Virus record (IMG/VR): IMGVR_UViG_3300048033_000017
Location: 1 to 23,873 of that record
Length of the DNA: 23,873 nucleotides
Origin: a virus
Reading direction: 5' to 3' (one strand)
Part shown: piece after piece, positions 3,192 to 23,358 of the stretch
Layout: each line of letters starts with the position of its first letter
Position numbering within the stretch: position 1 is the first letter of the stretch
Made by a program: the position numbers and the translations under genes
The notes under the pieces: model-generated
The model's database searches: none
Seen by the model: only the letters and a program-made list of their open reading frames with translations
What the model was told of the DNA's origin: nothing

Positions 3192-3725
3192 ATGACAATT
3201 TCAGTAGATGAGCTTCACGAAATACTCAAGTACGACCCCGACACAGGCTCTCTTACTTGGCGTGAGCGCACAGATAGTTTTCCAGCCCCTATAACCTCTA
3301 TAAGAATTTTCAATTCAAAATTTGCAAACAAGCCAGTTTACGAGGAGGTCCACAAAGGCTACCGCAGGATTAGGCTTTTTGGCAAGAGTTACAAGTCCCA
3401 CCGAGTTGCTTGGGCTATGCACCACGGCGCTTGGCCTGAAGACCAAATAGATCATATAAATGGCATTAGGTCTGATAATAGAATTGAGAATTTACGCGCT
3501 GTCACTCAATTTGAAAATTCTAGGAATATGAAGATTCCTTCAAAAAATATGTCTGGCGTTATAGGAGTTGCTTGGGACAAGCTAAACTGGAAGTGGCGGG
3601 TTAGCATCGGGACGGGCAAAGAGCATATTCATCTTGGCTACTTTAAGTCTTTTGAGGAAGCGGTGTCTGTGCGCAGGTCTGCTGAGGTTAAGTATGGTTA
3701 TCACCCAAACCACGGCAAGCGCTAG
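3192..3725 (+). CDS. HNH homing-type endonuclease with AP2 domain
   Basis: The start ATG follows AAGGAG (3179-3184) at a good distance. The central part holds an HNH_3-type core: KSHRVAWAMHHG, then DQIDHINGIRSDNRIENLRAVT (about residues 73-103), with the conserved H(R), the IDHINGIRSDNR metal/DNA-binding loop and N(L)R. The C-terminal 60 residues (SGVIGVAWDKLNWKWRVSI...LGYFKSFEEAV) form an AP2 DNA-binding domain of three strands and a helix. The N-terminus (LHEILKYDPDTGSLTWRER) is the usual lead-in of such phage enzymes. These are mostly free-standing homing endonucleases that cut intron- or gene-less alleles. Its AT-rich codons (aaaaatatg, aattctagg) differ from the terminase genes, fitting separate acquisition. 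A role in cos cleavage, known for other HNH proteins beside terminase, is less likely for this type. Confidence 0.9.
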   Translation: MTISVDELHEILKYDPDTGSLTWRERTDSFPAPITSIRIFNSKFANKPVYEEVHKGYRRIRLFGKSYKSHRVAWAMHHGAWPEDQIDHINGIRSDNRIENLRAVTQFENSRNMKIPSKNMSGVIGVAWDKLNWKWRVSIGTGKEHIHLGYFKSFEEAVSVRRSAEVKYGYHPNHGKR

Positions 3726-6032: not shown

Positions 6033-7655
6033 TTGGTTGGTTTGCTTTCCGCCAAAGATTACGCTGGCTACGCTGACGAGGGGCGCAGGCTTGCTGTTGA
6101 CGTGCCGAATGTCACGCCGATGGACGCGGCTCGCTTTATAGCTGAGGCCACACCGATCATTGGCGACGCGATGGCGGCCAAAGAGATTTACGACGAGGCT
6201 ACATCTGAAAACCCGAATTGGGCTTTAGTTGGCGCGCTGGGCGGTGCTGCCGTGTTGGGCTTGTTCCCCGGCATTGGTGATGCAGCTGCGAAGGCTGTTA
6301 AGTCTGGTGCGCGTGGTTTGCTTGATACGGCCAAGCGCGTTGAGGTTGACCCCAATGCGATGGGTTCGCTGCTCGGTAATGTGCGGTTGAAGCCGAAGGC
6401 ATTAACAAAAGAAGACGCGCCACTTATAGCTCATCACAACATTGACACAAAGGGCGTGATGGCGGCGGCAGAGATTGGCGGCATACCCATGCCATCTTTG
6501 GCCATATCAAACGCAAACTTTCCTCTTGAAGAGTATGGGGACATTAGCCTCTTGCTTGCCCCAAACAAGATTGCCCCTAGTCGTGACTTACCTGTTTGGC
6601 CAAACGATGCTTACACTGGCAGGCAGAATAAGGGCTTTATTGATTTTGTAGACGAGGACGCAACTAGAGCCGCTTTTAGGAGTGACCCTGACTTTGGGCA
6701 TATGGGTAGCAACTGGATGGACAGCACAAGCGGTTTTGACGATCAAGACTATATGATGCGCGTTGCTCAATTTGGCAAGGCAAACAAAATTGCTGACCCT
6801 AAAGACTTTGACCAATTTCGTGATTACGTCAACGAAGTTCAAAGGAAGTCCGGTGAGGCTCTGTATGACACCGAAAAGGCACTAGCACCTTACGGCGGCT
6901 TGGCAGACTATGGCGAAGTTCAACGCATGATTCATCCAGAAGAGCCTTACACGCCTTCTGGCCAAAGGGTAAAGCCAAAGCCTTATACCATTGAAGAGGC
7001 TTACAGGCGGATGAATAAAGCCAAAGCATTTGAGGCTGGTTCGGAAAATACATCTAGCGGTGGCGCTCTTCGGGCTATTTCATCTGATAAGTTTAAAGAC
7101 CTTGATGAGATTAAGGCCAGCAGGGACTTGTTGCGCCCACTTGATAATGACATGGCCGATATTAAGGAATCTTTTAATAGTGACGTTTATTATGCTATTG
7201 AGGATTTGGCCCAAAAGCACTTTGGCGGCCGGCATACTTTAACGCAGGACTTTCTTGTAGATTTGGCCAGAGGCAAAAATGTAAGTTATGCAGACGCAAC
7301 TCCGGAGGCGATTTCTGCTGCCAAAGATGTGTTGGCTGGCTTTAAAAAAGAAGTAAAGGGCATGCCGACAGAGTATTTTGAGGCCAAGCCGCGGTCAGTT
7401 GCTCAATTGCGTGATTTTGATGCGGCCTTGGTTCCTCAAGGTAATACAGCTGCCATTGAAAAGTTAAAGCGGCAAGGCGTGCCGGAAATTATTGAATACA
7501 ATGACGAAATTCCCGGAATGACCCGCGCTGAAAAAATTAGACAAATGCAAAAATTGCTCTTTAGCGGCGCTATGGCCCCCGGCGGCTTACTAGCCTTACA
7601 AGAAATGCAAAAACGTGCTAATGAAGAGCAACAACGGCAAGGACTGTTACAGTAA
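6033..7655 (+). CDS. Putative ejected virion protein with large-polyvalent-protein-type domain
   Basis: The start appears to be TTG at 6033, with GGGA at 6021-6024; the first in-frame ATG (6120) would remove the conserved N-terminus. Residues 1-60 (DYAGYADEGRRL...AARFIAEATPIIGDA) lead to a Gly/Ala-rich hydrophobic segment, about 65-90 (WALVGALGGAAVLGLFPGIG), a likely membrane-inserting element. From about 130 the sequence follows a pattern I associate with domains accompanying large polyvalent proteins of phages and conjugative elements. It shows APLIAHHNIDTKGV then GGIPMPSLAIS and YGDISLLL, a distal YFEAKPRSVAQLRDFDAALVP, and a terminal GVPEIIEY. The function of that domain is unknown. The C-terminus has a short hydrophobic stretch (SGAMAPGGLLAL). 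Codons in 6400-7650 are more AT-rich than nearby genes, suggesting mosaic origin. Its stop overlaps the next start (TAATG). Confidence 0.7.
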   Translation: MVGLLSAKDYAGYADEGRRLAVDVPNVTPMDAARFIAEATPIIGDAMAAKEIYDEATSENPNWALVGALGGAAVLGLFPGIGDAAAKAVKSGARGLLDTAKRVEVDPNAMGSLLGNVRLKPKALTKEDAPLIAHHNIDTKGVMAAAEIGGIPMPSLAISNANFPLEEYGDISLLLAPNKIAPSRDLPVWPNDAYTGRQNKGFIDFVDEDATRAAFRSDPDFGHMGSNWMDSTSGFDDQDYMMRVAQFGKANKIADPKDFDQFRDYVNEVQRKSGEALYDTEKALAPYGGLADYGEVQRMIHPEEPYTPSGQRVKPKPYTIEEAYRRMNKAKAFEAGSENTSSGGALRAISSDKFKDLDEIKASRDLLRPLDNDMADIKESFNSDVYYAIEDLAQKHFGGRHTLTQDFLVDLARGKNVSYADATPEAISAAKDVLAGFKKEVKGMPTEYFEAKPRSVAQLRDFDAALVPQGNTAAIEKLKRQGVPEIIEYNDEIPGMTRAEKIRQMQKLLFSGAMAPGGLLALQEMQKRANEEQQRQGLLQ

Positions 7656-16288: not shown

Positions 16289-17425
16289 ATGGCAGGCGCA
16301 GCACCACAAACACCACAAACATCAATAGCTCGCCCCGGCGATGTGGCTTACGACCCGCAGGCACAAAAAACGGGAGTATTGCCCGGTATGCAGCCAACAA
16401 TGGGCAACTTTCCTATAAACCTTCCGCCCAACATGCAGGGCCAAAGTTTTTCATATGGACCGGACGCGCAAGGCGGTAACTCGCAGTTAATGCAGGCTCC
16501 GATGCAGCCGGGTCAACCTGACCCTGTTAACGGTGTAATGCCAATGGCGCCGATGTCCGAGCCGGGTGCTGTTAGCGGTGCAATGCCAATGGCACCGGGT
16601 GTCATGACCCCTTCTGTATCGGCTGTGTCGCCCAACCCCGATTCCGTGCAGGCTGTCCCGCTGCCCGGACCGGGCGTTAAGGCAGGCAAGGGCGGTGGCG
16701 CAAGTGCTGCTATGCCAACGCCGCCAGTTGCAGGCACGCCCCAACCACGGCAAGCTCCGCAGTACACTCCAATGGCTCCGCAGCAGCAAGGCGGCTTCAA
16801 CGTAAACCAAGCATCCGCAGGAGCATTGCAAGGCGCAATCGGCGCAACTCAGCAAGCTATGCAGGGGCCAATCAATATCGGCGCATATGCCAACCCGTTT
16901 ACCAGCGCAGTAATCGAGCGCACCCAGCAGGACATTGCGCGTCAACAGCAGATGGCGCAAAACCAGCTTGGCGCGCAGGCCACTGCTGCCAGAGCATTTG
17001 GCGGATCACGTCAGGGTGTCGCTGAAGGCGTTATGGCTGGCGAGTATGGCCGTATGGCTGGCGACATTGCAGCGCAGCAGCGTCAAGCAAACTACAGCCA
17101 AGCCTTGCAGGCCGCAATGACCGACCGTCAGGCTCGCCTCGGTGCCGCGTCCCAGCTCGGTGGACTTGGCCAGCAAGCGTTTAAGACAGGCCAAACAATC
17201 CAGCAGCAGCAAGCGCAGCAAGGTCTCTTGCAGCAAGGTATTCAGCAGGCGCTCATTGATGCGGCACGTCAGCAATACGCTGGTTACACTGGCGCACCAT
17301 CGCAGGCTTTGAAGGCACCTCTGGCCGCGCTTGGCGTTACGCCGAATCAAAGTACAACTACTAATTCCATGCAGCCCGGCCTGTTTCAATACTTACAGCT
17401 CGGCGCAAGCATGGTTCCGGGTTAA
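16289..17425 (+). CDS. Gln/Ala-rich internal virion (ejection) protein, 378 aa
   Basis: The N-terminal half is Pro, Met and Gly-rich with short tandem units (NGVMPMAPMSEPGAVSGAMPMAPG, about residues 82-105), encoded by near-identical DNA repeats around 16532-16600. The C-terminal half is a long Gln/Ala helical region. It contains ANPFTSAVIERTQQDIARQQQMAQNQLGAQATAARAFGGSRQGVAEG and YSQALQAA..., a pattern I recognise as typical of internal core or DNA-ejection proteins in marine short-tailed phages. No membrane segment is evident. AAGGAA lies eight bases before the ATG, and the gene starts one base after the upstream stop. It likely packs with the two following large proteins inside the head. 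Confidence 0.7.
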   Translation: MAGAAPQTPQTSIARPGDVAYDPQAQKTGVLPGMQPTMGNFPINLPPNMQGQSFSYGPDAQGGNSQLMQAPMQPGQPDPVNGVMPMAPMSEPGAVSGAMPMAPGVMTPSVSAVSPNPDSVQAVPLPGPGVKAGKGGGASAAMPTPPVAGTPQPRQAPQYTPMAPQQQGGFNVNQASAGALQGAIGATQQAMQGPINIGAYANPFTSAVIERTQQDIARQQQMAQNQLGAQATAARAFGGSRQGVAEGVMAGEYGRMAGDIAAQQRQANYSQALQAAMTDRQARLGAASQLGGLGQQAFKTGQTIQQQQAQQGLLQQGIQQALIDAARQQYAGYTGAPSQALKAPLAALGVTPNQSTTTNSMQPGLFQYLQLGASMVPG

Positions 17426-17428
17426 GAA

Positions 17429-19063
17429 ATGCCACAAGGTTTTATCCCCCTCTCAACGCAAATGGATTTTCTCTGGAATGAAGTGCAGGGAAAGGAAAAG
17501 TCTGGCTTTGAAAAGTTCCGTGCGGCCAACGCCTCAACGCCGGAAGACTATGCAACGCTGTGGGATAAATACTATGAGCGCTCAGGTGGCGCAGGGGACG
17601 AGAAGGCTCGCAACTATGCCAACAGCGTTTACGCAGCAATGGCCGATGGCACATCAAACCCCGGCGTCATTTCTCCAAACGCAAAGTTTGCTTACGGGTA
17701 TTTGACGCAGAAGGGTCTCACACCGCAGCAGGCCGCTGGCATCACTGGCCGCCTGATGGCTGAGAGCTATGAGGATATGAACCCAGATGCTCGCAACACA
17801 CTTGCTGGCGGTCAAGGAGCATATGGCATTGCGCAGTGGCGTGGCAGCCGGATGAATGATTTGGCAAATTTCGCAGGCGTTGACGTGGCCGACATTACAT
17901 CACTGCCAGCAACCACTGCCAAGGGCGGTTTACTTACAAGCAATCAAGGGGGTCAAGACATGGCCATTTCCAACAAAGCTCCATACATGATGGGCGGCGA
18001 GCAGACTTACAACGCACCCAACATGGGTCAGCCAGCGCCGCAGCGGCCGCAGCAGGGCGGGATGCGTGGGCTTCTGTCAACGCTGAAAGATGCGGCAACG
18101 GCTGTTGACCCTAATACTGGGCTGACAGGGTTCCAGACCTTTGCGGCTGCGCTTGATCCCTTGATCATGCCAGAACTGCGCGGCGGTGGTGAGGCCATTC
18201 GTAAGTCTGGTGCGCAGCGTGTCGCGGCGGGCAACAAGAATAAAACCATTGAAATGTTGCGAGCCAGAGGTCGAGATGATCTGGCTGATATGCTTGCGCG
18301 CGGCATGATTTCTGGCACTGATGCGGCTAGTCAGTTGTTGGCTACGCCGAAGGATGACAGAACTGCTGGCATCAAGGAGTACCAGCAAGCCGTCAAGGAT
18401 GGATTTAAGGGGACATTCCTTGAATATAAGACTGCACTTCAGAAGGCCGGGGCTACTAGCGTGACTGTTGGCGGCGAAGGTGCAGAGGCATTTGACAAGG
18501 AATTTGGGAAACTTGACGCACAATCCTTGGCTGATGTCGCAAAGGTCGGCGCAACGGCCTCCAGAAGCCTTGCGCAAATTGGTCGCCTTGAGGCATTGCT
18601 AAGCAACATTGACAGCGGCATGGGCGCGAGTATTCAGCAATACGCAGGTAATTTCGGCATCCAGACTGATGGTCTTGATGACATCCAAGCGGCGGCAGCA
18701 CTTATAAATGCCCTTGTCCCAGCGCAGCGCCCTCCGGGGTCTGGCCCAATGTCCGACGCAGACCTAGAGTTGTTCAAACAATCTTTGCCTCGCATAATAA
18801 ACTCCCCCGGCGGCAACCAAATTATCATCAGCACTATGCGTGGGCTTGCCGAGTATGATGCTGAGGGTGCTAGAATTGTGCAGAGGTTGCGTAAAAAAGA
18901 AATAACGCAAGCGGAAGCATTTGAGCTGCTGAATAGCCGCCCAGACCCGTTTGCAGCTTTCAAAGCCCCAACTGGCGAGGGCGCAGCGGCTCCAAGCGGC
19001 GCGCGCGAGAGGAGATGGAACCCGTCGCTAAACAACGGCGCTGGAGGCTTTGATAATGGTTGA
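17429..19063 (+). CDS. Internal virion protein with tail-lysozyme domain (apparently circularly permuted)
   Basis: This protein probably cuts peptidoglycan during DNA entry. Residues about 85-150 match the first half of the phage tail-lysozyme family: FAYGYLTQKGLTPQQAAGITGRLMAES with candidate catalytic Glu112, then GAYGIAQWRGSRMNDLANFAGV. Residues about 8-75 match what normally follows that half: QMDFLWNEVQGKEKSGF...YATLWDKYYERSGGAGDEKARNYA. The order of the two halves is thus reversed. The rest is a long helical region. It has EYQQAVKDGFKGTFLEYKTAL (about 315) and LVPAQRPPGSGPMSDADLELF (about 430), the latter typical of ejection proteins. The C-terminus is Gly/Asn-rich. The ribosome-binding site is weak. 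The end overlaps the next start by eight bases. The permutation should be verified by structure prediction. Confidence 0.75.
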   Translation: MPQGFIPLSTQMDFLWNEVQGKEKSGFEKFRAANASTPEDYATLWDKYYERSGGAGDEKARNYANSVYAAMADGTSNPGVISPNAKFAYGYLTQKGLTPQQAAGITGRLMAESYEDMNPDARNTLAGGQGAYGIAQWRGSRMNDLANFAGVDVADITSLPATTAKGGLLTSNQGGQDMAISNKAPYMMGGEQTYNAPNMGQPAPQRPQQGGMRGLLSTLKDAATAVDPNTGLTGFQTFAAALDPLIMPELRGGGEAIRKSGAQRVAAGNKNKTIEMLRARGRDDLADMLARGMISGTDAASQLLATPKDDRTAGIKEYQQAVKDGFKGTFLEYKTALQKAGATSVTVGGEGAEAFDKEFGKLDAQSLADVAKVGATASRSLAQIGRLEALLSNIDSGMGASIQQYAGNFGIQTDGLDDIQAAAALINALVPAQRPPGSGPMSDADLELFKQSLPRIINSPGGNQIIISTMRGLAEYDAEGARIVQRLRKKEITQAEAFELLNSRPDPFAAFKAPTGEGAAAPSGARERRWNPSLNNGAGGFDNG

Positions 19064-21260
19064 TGTAACGCTTCCCGACGGGACAATACTGCGGGACATC
19101 CCCGACACCATGAGCGCGGCTGAGCAAGAGGCAGTGGTCCGTCAATACCTGATGGACAACCCCATTGAACCCGAAAAAGGCGCAATGCAGAGCGCGATTG
19201 ATTGGGCTAAAGGTGGCCAGCGTGAGGAAAACATCCCGCTGGCTTTTCAAGCGAACTTAGGTTTGCCGGAAGATAAAGCCGCAAAGATGACTGCGCTACT
19301 TGCCACAACGGCCACTGATGAGCGGCTACAGTCCGGCATTTCAGAAATCTTGCCGGGTTCAACCTTTGACAAAGATCAATATGGAAACTTGGTTGTCACG
19401 ACGCCAATTTACAGAAATGGCGAAAGGACGGAGCAGGTAAATCGCTTTTATCCCAATCCATATGGGTTGGATATGACGGACTTGATGCAGGGCGCTGGCG
19501 TTGTAGCGTCTGCCACTGGCTTTGGTAAGGTTATGAAGATGGCTGGTCTGCCTATGTCTGGCTATCTTGGGGCAACAACACTTGGCGCGACTGAAGCTGG
19601 CTTAATTGAGGCTGCAAGCTCAAAGCTATCTGGCGCTGATTTTAAGTTTAGCGACGTTCCTTTGGGCGCACTTGGCGGCGCTGCTGGCTTAAAAGCTGGT
19701 CAAATTTTATCGCGGGTTGCGGATTTATTTAAGCGAACTCCTGAGTCGGTCATGCTGCCCAATGGCCAGCTGAGGCCAGAAATAAGGCAGCAAATGGAAG
19801 CCGCTGGGATTAATGCCGATCAAGCCACAGCTGAGATGGCCGCCGCAATGCAGCAGCAAGTTGCGCGCGGGGTTGATCCGACTGAAGCGGCCCGCTTGTC
19901 GGCGGCTGAGACGTTGCCTGTGCCTGTGCCTTTAACTAGGGGCGCAACCACTGGTTCGACTGGTCAGCAATTATTTGAAGATATGGCTCGCAAAGGCGCA
20001 TATGGTCAAGTTGCAGAAGCAATGATGACTTCAGCTGAAAAAAGAACCCTTGAGGCACTTCAGCAAAACTTGCCAGAAATACAGCAAAAGATAGCAGGCC
20101 AAGGGCCGCTCATCCAGCGTGGCACAGGCGGTGCCGCGGCGCAGGAGGCTCTGTCAGCGCAAAGACAGGCCGCGCTGGATGAGGCTAATCGGCTGTATGA
20201 CGTTGCTCGGGCTACAGGGCCAGCGTCAATGGCTCCAGATACAGCAGGCACACTTGCAGACACAATGAGAGCCTCTATTCGGGACTTCACCCCATCGGCT
20301 CGGCCAGTCACGACAGGTATTATGGACGAGATTGATGACATTCTGGCTCAAGGCGGCGACATCAAGATGCTGTTTCAGAAGCGCCAGCAACTAGCCAATG
20401 CAGGTGCGCAAGGTACACCCGAGCAGGCTGCGGCAACAGCGGCTAAGAGGGCTTTGGATAATTCTTTGGCTGATTTGGTTCAAAGGTCACTTATCGAAGG
20501 CGATGACACAGCCATTGCCGCGTGGTCCAACGCAATTAAAAACTACGCTGATTTTAAGGCCACTTGGTCCAGCCGAGGCGGAATACTTAACTCTCTGACA
20601 GAAACCGTCACACGCGATGGCGATTTAGTTCTGAAGCAACCTCCAGAAGCGGTGGCCAACTATATACTTGGCGCGTCAAACGCGAAGTTGCTCAAGCCGG
20701 GAAACGTATCAAGAGACCTTTTGAAGTTGAAAAAGTTTTTACCTCAAGACGAGTGGAACCAAATTCGGCAAGAGGCTTTTATCAACTTAACGGATAAATC
20801 TGTGGCCTCCCGCGCTGGCCAAGATATGTTTTCTGGCGTAAACTTTTTGAAATCATGGAAAGACATGACGGCAAAAAACCCAGAGGCAATCAAAGCATTG
20901 TTTACAAAAGAAGAGCGTGACCTTATCGGGCAGTTTGCAAGTGTAGCGGCGCGAGCCACTGGCGGCGCTGTGAACGCATCAAATTCCGCCGCTGCCGCGT
21001 CCGGCTTGATACAAAGACTTGGCGCAGCATTAGGGTCAACAAATCTTGCTCAATTTGCATCAAGAGTTGTCGGCGGGAAAATGGTTCGTGAGGCTTATGG
21101 CGGTGCAAGGGCAGTTAGCGCTATGCGCGGTGGAGCGACACCGCAACCAAGCATAACAGCCCCCGGAGTTGGGGGCGCTGCCGCGACCAACGAGCAAGTA
21201 CGCAACCCGGTGCAGGAGCAAATTGAGCGTACAACTGGCTTTCGGCTTGGCGCATTCTAA
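19056..21260 (+). CDS. Large internal virion / DNA ejection protein (734 aa)
   Basis: The start at 19056 is chosen because GGAG (19043-19046) is nine bases upstream; a TTG at 19050 is less likely. The N-terminus VDVTLPDGTILRDIPDTMSAAEQEAVVRQYL is a common lead-in of internal ejection proteins. A Gly/Ala hydrophobic region at about residues 145-190 (GVVASATGFGKVMKMAGLPMSGYLGATTLGATEAG) could insert into the membrane. It is followed by a second Gly-rich segment and long Ala/Gln helices (about 230-600). Toward the end Ala/Ser/Gly stretches return, with a polar tail (PVQEQIERTTGF). No enzyme motif is seen. In size and place it resembles the largest core protein of T7-like and P22-like phages, which helps build the DNA channel (inference). 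The portal follows 16 bases later. Confidence 0.72.
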   Translation: MVDVTLPDGTILRDIPDTMSAAEQEAVVRQYLMDNPIEPEKGAMQSAIDWAKGGQREENIPLAFQANLGLPEDKAAKMTALLATTATDERLQSGISEILPGSTFDKDQYGNLVVTTPIYRNGERTEQVNRFYPNPYGLDMTDLMQGAGVVASATGFGKVMKMAGLPMSGYLGATTLGATEAGLIEAASSKLSGADFKFSDVPLGALGGAAGLKAGQILSRVADLFKRTPESVMLPNGQLRPEIRQQMEAAGINADQATAEMAAAMQQQVARGVDPTEAARLSAAETLPVPVPLTRGATTGSTGQQLFEDMARKGAYGQVAEAMMTSAEKRTLEALQQNLPEIQQKIAGQGPLIQRGTGGAAAQEALSAQRQAALDEANRLYDVARATGPASMAPDTAGTLADTMRASIRDFTPSARPVTTGIMDEIDDILAQGGDIKMLFQKRQQLANAGAQGTPEQAAATAAKRALDNSLADLVQRSLIEGDDTAIAAWSNAIKNYADFKATWSSRGGILNSLTETVTRDGDLVLKQPPEAVANYILGASNAKLLKPGNVSRDLLKLKKFLPQDEWNQIRQEAFINLTDKSVASRAGQDMFSGVNFLKSWKDMTAKNPEAIKALFTKEERDLIGQFASVAARATGGAVNASNSAAAASGLIQRLGAALGSTNLAQFASRVVGGKMVREAYGGARAVSAMRGGATPQPSITAPGVGGAAATNEQVRNPVQEQIERTTGFRLGAF

Positions 21261-21276
21261 TTAAGGACAACGGCAC

Positions 21277-23358
21277 ATGGAACTTAAACCAAAATCACGC
21301 AGCGAAATCGAAAGCATTGTCCAAGACGCAATATCGGACGCGGTGGACTTTGTTGAGGGCGAGATCAGCGATGATCGGATCAAGGCTCAACGCTACTACG
21401 ACGGCGAGGTTGACCTTGGTTACGAGGAAGGCCGCAGCAAGGTTGTAGCCACAAAGGTACGGGATACCGTACGCTCTGTGAAGCCAAGCCTGATGCGCAT
21501 ATTCCTCAGCACAGCCAAGCCAGTTGAGTTTGTGCCAAACGGCCCAGAAGACGTTGCAATGGCCGAGCAGGCCACTGAGTTTATGCACCATGAGTTTACC
21601 CGGCTAAACGGCTACCGCGTGATGAATGACGCTTTCCAAGATGCGCTGGTTAAAAAGCAAGGCATCGTGAAGGCATACTGGATGACATATCCAGAGGCCG
21701 AGATTTTCACGTTCACCGACTTGTCTGACGACGAATATACATATCTGCTGGATGACGACAGCGTGACTGTGATTGAGCATACAGTTGAAATGACCATTGA
21801 GATTGATCCAATGGGCATGGAGATTGAGCTGCCGATCCACAGCGTAAAACTCAGCCGCCAGAAAGAACGTGGCGAGCTGTGCATTGAGAGCGTACCGCCG
21901 GAAGAGTTCTTCATCAACCGTGACGCCCGCAGCCTTGCCGATGCCTACGTTGTGGCTCACCGCACAGACATGCGCGCTGGCGATCTAATCGCAATGGGCT
22001 ACGACCCAGACGTGGTGCTTAATCTGGACAGCTTTGAAAGCGGCTCAGACATGACTGAAGCCGAGATATATGAGCGGCGCGGTTACGACATGGATACGTC
22101 AGATGAGGACGTGCAAGACCCATCCATGCGCAATGTTGCCGTAACTGAAGCCTATATGCGCATTGACGTTGATGGCACTGGCGTACCTGTCCTGCACAAA
22201 ATCACATGCGGTGGCACTGCATACGAAATGCTTGACTTCGAGCCATGCGATGAGCTGCCGTTTGCCAAATTTGAAATAGACCCAGAGCCACACACGTTTT
22301 ATGGCCGCTCACTGGCCGAGATTGTTATGGACGACCAAGACGCAGCCACATCGGTCCTGCGCTCTATCCTTGACAACGTGGCGATGACAAACAACCCACG
22401 CCTCGGCATTGTTGAAGGCGCAGTCAACATTGATGACGTGCTGAATAACGAGATTGGCGCAATCGTGCGTATGCGCGCTCCGGGTTCTGTGCAGGAATTA
22501 TCTGTCCCATTCACCGCAGGCCAGACACTTGGCGCGCTGACATACCTAGATGGCCTCGTAGAGAGCAAGACAGGCGTTTCCAGAGCCTCAATGGGCCTAG
22601 ACCCTGATGCAATGCAGTCAACCACAAAGGCTGCTGTGCAGGCCACTGTGCAGGCCGCAGCGGGTCAGGTTGAAGTTATGGTTCGCAATCTTGCCGACGG
22701 TATGCGCGACTTGTTCGGCATTATGCTGCGCTTGATGCACAAGAATGTTGACGAAGAGCAAATGATGCGGATGAATGGTGCTTTTGTGCCAGTTGACCCA
22801 CGGGTCTGGGATTCCAGCTTTGACGTGAGCATCAACGTGGGCCTCGGCACTGGCCGTGAGGAAGAAAAGCTAATCGCACTCAACCAAGCGCTGCAAATGC
22901 AAACGATGGTTTACCAGAACTACGGCCCGATGAATGGCTTGGTCAGCCTGACCAACATTCGCAACACGCTGGCGGACCAGTTGGCTGTTTCAGGCATACG
23001 CAATGCTGACCGTTACTTTGCGCCAATCACGCCAGAGATTGAGATGCAAATGCTGCAAATGCAACAGCAAGCTCAGGCGCAGCAAGGTCAAGCGGCTGAT
23101 CCAAACGCTGCGTTCTTGCAGGCAGAGCAAATGAAAGCGCAAACGAAGGCTCAAACTGACATGGCCAAGTTGCAGCTTGAAATGCAGAAGGCAGCAGCCA
23201 ATGACGATCTCAAGCGAGATCAGATGGCGCAGGACTTGCTGGTCGATGCGGCAAAGATTTACGGCGAATACGGCACAGCCGTTGATGTGGCCCGCGTGAA
23301 AGCCGAGCAAGATAAAATGCGCATGATCGGCGGCATGGCCCAAGGGGTGCAGCAATGA
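21277..23358 (+). CDS. Portal protein (P22-type)
   Basis: The dodecameric ring at the phage vertex through which DNA enters and leaves. Features of the family include the N-terminal KAQRYYDGEVDLGYEEGRSKVVATKVRDTVRSVKPSLMRIF, the wing region with ESVPPEEFFINRDARSLADAYVVAHR, a stem/clip region around FYGRSLAEIVMDDQDAATSVLRSILDN, and TKAAVQATVQAAAGQVEVMVRNLADGMRDLFGIMLRL. The last 110 residues are Gln/Ala/Met-rich helix (EMQMLQMQQQAQAQQ...), likely the barrel or an internal helical extension. The 693-aa length is close to P22 gp1 (725 aa). AAGGA lies ahead of the ATG and the next gene overlaps by four bases. Its separation from the terminase by about 16 kb is unlike the P22 order. Confidence 0.93.
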   Translation: MELKPKSRSEIESIVQDAISDAVDFVEGEISDDRIKAQRYYDGEVDLGYEEGRSKVVATKVRDTVRSVKPSLMRIFLSTAKPVEFVPNGPEDVAMAEQATEFMHHEFTRLNGYRVMNDAFQDALVKKQGIVKAYWMTYPEAEIFTFTDLSDDEYTYLLDDDSVTVIEHTVEMTIEIDPMGMEIELPIHSVKLSRQKERGELCIESVPPEEFFINRDARSLADAYVVAHRTDMRAGDLIAMGYDPDVVLNLDSFESGSDMTEAEIYERRGYDMDTSDEDVQDPSMRNVAVTEAYMRIDVDGTGVPVLHKITCGGTAYEMLDFEPCDELPFAKFEIDPEPHTFYGRSLAEIVMDDQDAATSVLRSILDNVAMTNNPRLGIVEGAVNIDDVLNNEIGAIVRMRAPGSVQELSVPFTAGQTLGALTYLDGLVESKTGVSRASMGLDPDAMQSTTKAAVQATVQAAAGQVEVMVRNLADGMRDLFGIMLRLMHKNVDEEQMMRMNGAFVPVDPRVWDSSFDVSINVGLGTGREEEKLIALNQALQMQTMVYQNYGPMNGLVSLTNIRNTLADQLAVSGIRNADRYFAPITPEIEMQMLQMQQQAQAQQGQAADPNAAFLQAEQMKAQTKAQTDMAKLQLEMQKAAANDDLKRDQMAQDLLVDAAKIYGEYGTAVDVARVKAEQDKMRMIGGMAQGVQQ

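Follow-up and report, generated by a model that had tools for sequence, protein, structure and literature searches.

A putative phage ejection protein with a probable natural circular permutation of its Phage_lysozyme2 domain

The window (the whole stretch of DNA analysed, a viral record from IMG/VR that is 23,873 bases long) encodes a 544-aa protein in which the two halves of a lysozyme domain stand in swapped order. We consider it very probable that this protein is a virion-borne (ejection-protein) putative muramidase with a naturally circularly permuted lysozyme domain, for which we infer catalysis, packaging in the virion and a role in entry. Thirty-seven distinct relatives, from uncultured phages, have the halves swapped in the same way, which points to a single origin and to retention by selection. 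The family is already known, but as far as could be found the permuted form is new: in the literature searched, of which coverage was incomplete, no earlier report of a natural circular permutation of a phage lysozyme was found. The features of the gene are as follows.

17429..19063, + strand: open reading frame of 544 aa with ATG start; predicted virion/ejection protein with the circularly permuted Phage_lysozyme2 domain N-terminal
17450..17641, + strand: residues 8-71, the second ('C') half of the lysozyme domain, which here comes first
17642..17677, + strand: linker, residues 72-83, from the old C-terminus to the old N-terminus; the gap between the two profile matches
17678..17878, + strand: residues 84-150, the first ('N') half of the lysozyme domain, which here comes second
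17762..17764, + strand: codon of E112, the putative counterpart of E45 of phi29 gp13
18419..18970, + strand: C-terminal module, residues 331-514, common to Rhizobium phage RHph_I3_18 (41.6% identity)

Order of the two halves and its spread

PF18013 (Phage_lysozyme2) was the one Pfam-A family that matched the 544-aa protein, in two stretches (E 4e-22, 79.3 bits; gathering cut-off 28.2 bits, profile length 140). When residues 1-83 were scanned alone, profile positions 75-140 matched residues 8-71 (E 7.1e-9, 36.4 bits), and when residues 80-160 were scanned alone, profile positions 2-66 matched residues 84-150 (E 3e-16, 60.3 bits). Both halves thus exceed the cut-off separately while the profile order is inverted, which implies that both are present and swapped. 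The protein also has the family's Glu after the second helix of the first half and its YGxxQW motif; the catalytic-type Glu and the motif GAYGIAQWRG both lie within the N-half. It departs from the family in lacking the canonical order in one continuous match.

The original prediction had placed the second half of the family at residues 8-75 and the first half at residues 85-150, and both assignments hold with slightly shifted boundaries. It had also named, beforehand, the separate profile alignment of the two parts as a test, and this attempt at refutation failed, since the N-terminal part does match the family. With the half-domain HMM built here, the C-half of the window protein scored 93.8 bits. 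Residues 151-544 scanned alone against Pfam gave no matches, and six-frame half-domain HMM scans of the whole window gave no further copy of either half.

Relatives of the protein were found in 43 IMG/VR loci from many samples; most align from residue 1, often to residue 529 or further, and many independent contigs are collinear with the window protein over residues 1-529. Among close homologues, conservation is strong at the start codon and throughout the first 165 residues. Further relatives were sought with the N-half, the C-half and the full domain as queries, and the domains were then sorted with half-domain HMMs. In total, 167 domains were classified, with 37 distinct permuted domains, 125 distinct canonical domains and five unassigned. 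None of the 167 carried the second half on both sides, as a tandem or intermediate form would. The permuted domains come from IMG/VR contigs, and some have no more than 48-62% identity in the first half. Diverged groups (L142; L153-L158 with L174; L187; L143-L152 with L261) are among them; in one scan, the diverged permuted loci had 49-71% identity to the N-half query. In the last of these groups the permuted unit is embedded in fused proteins of 1111-1492 aa.

Nothing beyond the initial single contig speaks for a chance similarity of the N-terminus or a misjoined contig. The E-value of 7e-9 for the N-terminal part alone and its conservation in diverged relatives exclude the coincidence that the original prediction had listed as an alternative, and the same order in contigs of many independent samples rules out an assembly error. 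This explanation is therefore refuted, and we give it next to no chance. The swapped order within a single protein, as originally claimed, is confirmed by the separate profile scans and by its recurrence in relatives.

Six cultured-phage examples (L308, L310-L314) were canonical by the half-domain models, and permuted queries (narrow motifs) found nothing when contigs of bacterial genomes were scanned. Staphylococcal phages, which single-piece tblastn had put forward as cultured permuted relatives, were rejected after two of these loci were read: the domain there was canonical, and the upstream match was not a second half. The permuted query gave a collinear single-piece match at L308 (2501-2935) although the domain there is canonical, and another at L309 (3001-3411), where the second half was undetected by the half-domain model. 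Such collinear tblastn matches can mislead hunts for permutation. Conversely, sequential profile and structure searches detect only half of a permuted domain at once, which calls for caution among annotators.

Predicted structure, active site and selection

The structure of residues 1-160 was predicted with AlphaFold2 from an alignment in which 26 rows were permuted and 38 were first-half fragments of canonical domains; the C-half fragments of these relatives had misaligned and were excluded. With a pLDDT of 91.9 and a pTM of 0.89, the resulting model is a single compact domain. Its helices span residues 8-20, 24-32, 38-50, 57-72, 83-94, 99-113 and 139-149, and short strands lie between residues 122 and 138. 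The linker was of low confidence (mean pLDDT 65 for block 71-80). This model, from 64 diverse rows, superseded a first one from a shallow alignment of 13 close rows, which had a pLDDT of 74 and no lysozyme match.

Sequential structure comparison placed model residues 77-152 on residues 10-83 of phi29 gp13 (Z 2.9, 72 residues, rmsd 4.0) and model residues 82-156 on residues 2-82 of c-type lysozymes; part of a lytic transglycosylase was also placed within model residues 77-158. The best matches in BFVD (viral) were phage tail lysozymes. Whole-model scores of the sequential aligners were weak, with a Z of 2.9 for the best lysozyme versus 3.6 for unrelated histone chains, and a Foldseek search of the PDB with this second model yielded nothing significant. 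Weak scores are expected from a rotated order, since sequential aligners cannot trace a rotated chain, and they are not proof of the fold. Overall, the structure matches, which are weak and cover only the first half, are consistent with a rotated lysozyme fold.

The N-terminal lysozyme domain of phi29 gp13, which is a tail-tip enzyme with an additional endopeptidase domain, can be compared in detail. Residues 15-85 of gp13 align with residues 82-151 of the window protein, and its structures (PDB 3csr, 3csq) match the first half of the model with Z 2.8-2.9 over 71-72 residues (rmsd 3.6-4.0, 27-28% identity). The order in gp13 is the reverse of that in the window protein, with the first half at the N-terminus and the second half after it. 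Four columns, E112, S113, G133 and Q136, were invariant in the 64 aligned rows. E112 aligned with E45 of gp13, which we take to be the catalytic residue of that enzyme, in a weak sequence alignment (E 0.1). The window domain further shares its motifs and catalytic-type Glu with Phage_lysozyme2 domains in general, such as those of Herelleviridae tail lysins and phage tape-measure proteins. In contrast to these, its halves are reversed, its termini lie in the inter-half loop, and its old ends are joined by the linker.

Purifying selection acts on each of the two halves, with dN/dS values of about 0.04-0.18 in eight pairwise comparisons, and the distances of the halves were correlated among the permuted sequences (r = 0.95, with shared ancestry uncorrected). 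The recurrence of the swap among the relatives suggests that the permuted domain probably still works. Residues 1 to about 160 would form one Phage_lysozyme2 lysozyme-fold domain, permuted in nature, in which both halves most likely fold together in one chain into the usual two-part lysozyme. E112 would be the catalytic acid, and the domain would cut the glycan strands of peptidoglycan.

Two other readings of the swapped halves need to be weighed. They could be the remnants of a tandem duplication, the C-half of one copy and the N-half of the next, left over without forming one domain, in a protein that is inactive or merely structural. Duplication followed by loss of the ends is the usual route to circular permutation, and the C-half is shortened in L151 and L152. 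However, remnants would be hard to reconcile with the strong purifying selection and correlated divergence of the two halves, the invariant Glu, the single confident domain of the AlphaFold2 model, the retention of the swapped order in relatives at 48-71% first-half identity, and the absence of tandem intermediates among the classified domains. We regard this reading as highly improbable. Alternatively, the C-half of one chain could complete the N-half of another to give a lysozyme in trans, for instance in a ring of ejection proteins. Podovirus ejection proteins do assemble into rings (PMC8954989), and the low confidence of the 12-residue linker also leans towards such a swap. Against it, the model packs both halves in one chain, and the permuted unit is also kept inside the fused proteins, which have another architecture; a domain-swapped oligomer is accordingly very unlikely.

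In L151 and L152 (each at about 2782-2830), the leading second half is short of a few residues of the DFLxxEL helix. These copies may be impaired, and with part of the C-half missing, not all permuted copies need be active.

Origin of the permutation

Trees were calculated with both halves set in the same order for every row. With 96 rows, a single branch set all permuted sequences apart (99/83), and the same split was obtained with 126 thinned rows (100/97), being present in all bootstrap trees counted. They also formed one group in a tree of the C-half only (SH-aLRT 91). A tree of the N-half only (65 columns) was mostly unresolved, and three changes were needed. As the canonical order has a much wider distribution and was the one found in the cultured phages examined, the permuted order was taken as derived, in trees that are unrooted. 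The grouping of the 37 distinct permuted domain sequences, versus 125 canonical ones, supports the circular permutation that had originally been proposed. Most likely there was a single swap, in an ancestor common to a group of podovirus-like phages.

The new termini lie within the loop that normally joins the two halves, which is mostly 7-13 residues long in canonical relatives. In permuted relatives the chain, or the permuted unit within it, starts just ahead of the second half (IPLSTQMDFLW in the window protein), and the first half finishes just past DLANFAG. The linker between the old ends has 12 residues in the window protein and 12-16 in relatives. This layout is the pattern expected of a tandem duplication with subsequent loss of the outer halves, which is the likely route. 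Loss from a duplicated domain, originally offered as an alternative to permutation, is less a rival than the probable path towards it, although none of the 167 classified domains is an intermediate.

Engineered circular permutants of T4 lysozyme have shown that lysozyme-type folds tolerate new termini. Those permutants are laboratory-made and belong to a different family, whereas the permutation described here is natural and inherited. Because the event maps to one branch and an orthologous gene offers a relative in canonical order for comparison, it provides a natural test of how permutation affects the way in which a very well studied fold forms and works.

Gene neighbourhood and the wall-hydrolase slot

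The lysozyme gene adjoins an ejection-type gene and lies close to the portal gene.

16289..17425, + strand: upstream gene, DNA-ejection-protein-like (phrog_4287, E 2.3e-12)
19050..21260, + strand: downstream gene of 736 aa without a significant family match
21277..23358, + strand: SU10-type portal protein (family match), two genes downstream of the lysozyme gene

From its position, the 736-aa gene probably encodes a third large internal or ejection protein; that it matched no ejection protein counts against the ejection-protein reading. The closest cultured match of the portal protein was Octadecabacter Antarctic DB virus 2 (49.4%), and its relatives include phages of Octadecabacter, Sinorhizobium and Pelagibacter, so that the host is likely alphaproteobacterial. 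The designation 'tail lysozyme' in the original prediction is apt as a family name, but not as a location, since the gene lies among podovirus-type ejection proteins and is not a tape measure.

The main evidence for function comes from orthologues that carry varied wall hydrolases at the same place, which identifies this place as a wall-hydrolase slot. The syntenic orthologue of Rhizobium phage RHph_I3_18 (QIG75013.1) has the same gene position, a homologous C-terminal module (41.6% identity over residues 331-514) and a domain of the same Pfam lysozyme family, PF18013, in the slot; there the domain is canonical (residues 128-252), whereas that of the window protein is permuted. L084 likewise has a canonical PF18013 domain according to the half-domain HMM. 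Searching with the C-terminal module also brought up orthologues that have SLT, M15 or glucosaminidase domains in the slot, and in Octadecabacter DB virus 2 the syntenic gene has Hydrolase_2. In L038 and L095, which were assessed by reading only, no domain was detected in the slot. Elsewhere, the C-terminal module is found downstream of canonical hydrolases, of unrelated hydrolases, or of none.

Across the window and eight other loci (L038, L045, L084, L085, L089, L095, L099, L315), the slot holds at least six wall-cutting solutions or none detected. The six are canonical Phage_lysozyme2, permuted Phage_lysozyme2, SLT, Peptidase M15, glucosaminidase and Hydrolase_2. An interchangeable hydrolase on the N-terminal side of a conserved C-terminal module, in a gene next to an ejection-type gene and near the portal, is a trait of ejection proteins. 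Wall-cutting domains swap between ejection proteins, and those of T7-like phages have swappable hydrolase domains (PMC8954989). T7 gp16, a podovirus ejection protein, also has its wall-cutting domain N-terminal; gp16-N is described as a transglycosylase. The likeness is one of architecture.

Like T7 gp16, the window protein is probably carried inside the virion as an ejection protein. It would leave the particle at infection, and the enzyme would then open a local hole in the wall through which the DNA crosses. The permutation itself could conceivably be adaptive, in that new termini between the halves alter the order of unfolding and refolding while the protein threads through the narrow portal and tail channel; the domain might then refold better in the periplasm or stay inactive in the capsid. 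We consider this unlikely. The protein offers a natural test of a possible selection for chain order by passage through the portal.

Close relatives (e.g., L029-L034, L025 and L037) differ in the C-terminal module that follows the conserved permuted domain (window 17987-19063). Comparison of these sequences points to recombination somewhere around residues 165-320.

Two further genes of the window were recorded. A 540-aa protein with a PBECR5 match (phage Barnase-EndoU-ColicinE5/D-RelE-like nuclease; 6033-7655) is encoded just upstream of the SU10-type adaptor gene. An HNH_3 endonuclease reading frame (3192-3725), which may encode a homing endonuclease, lies shortly before the gene for the Sf6-like small terminase.
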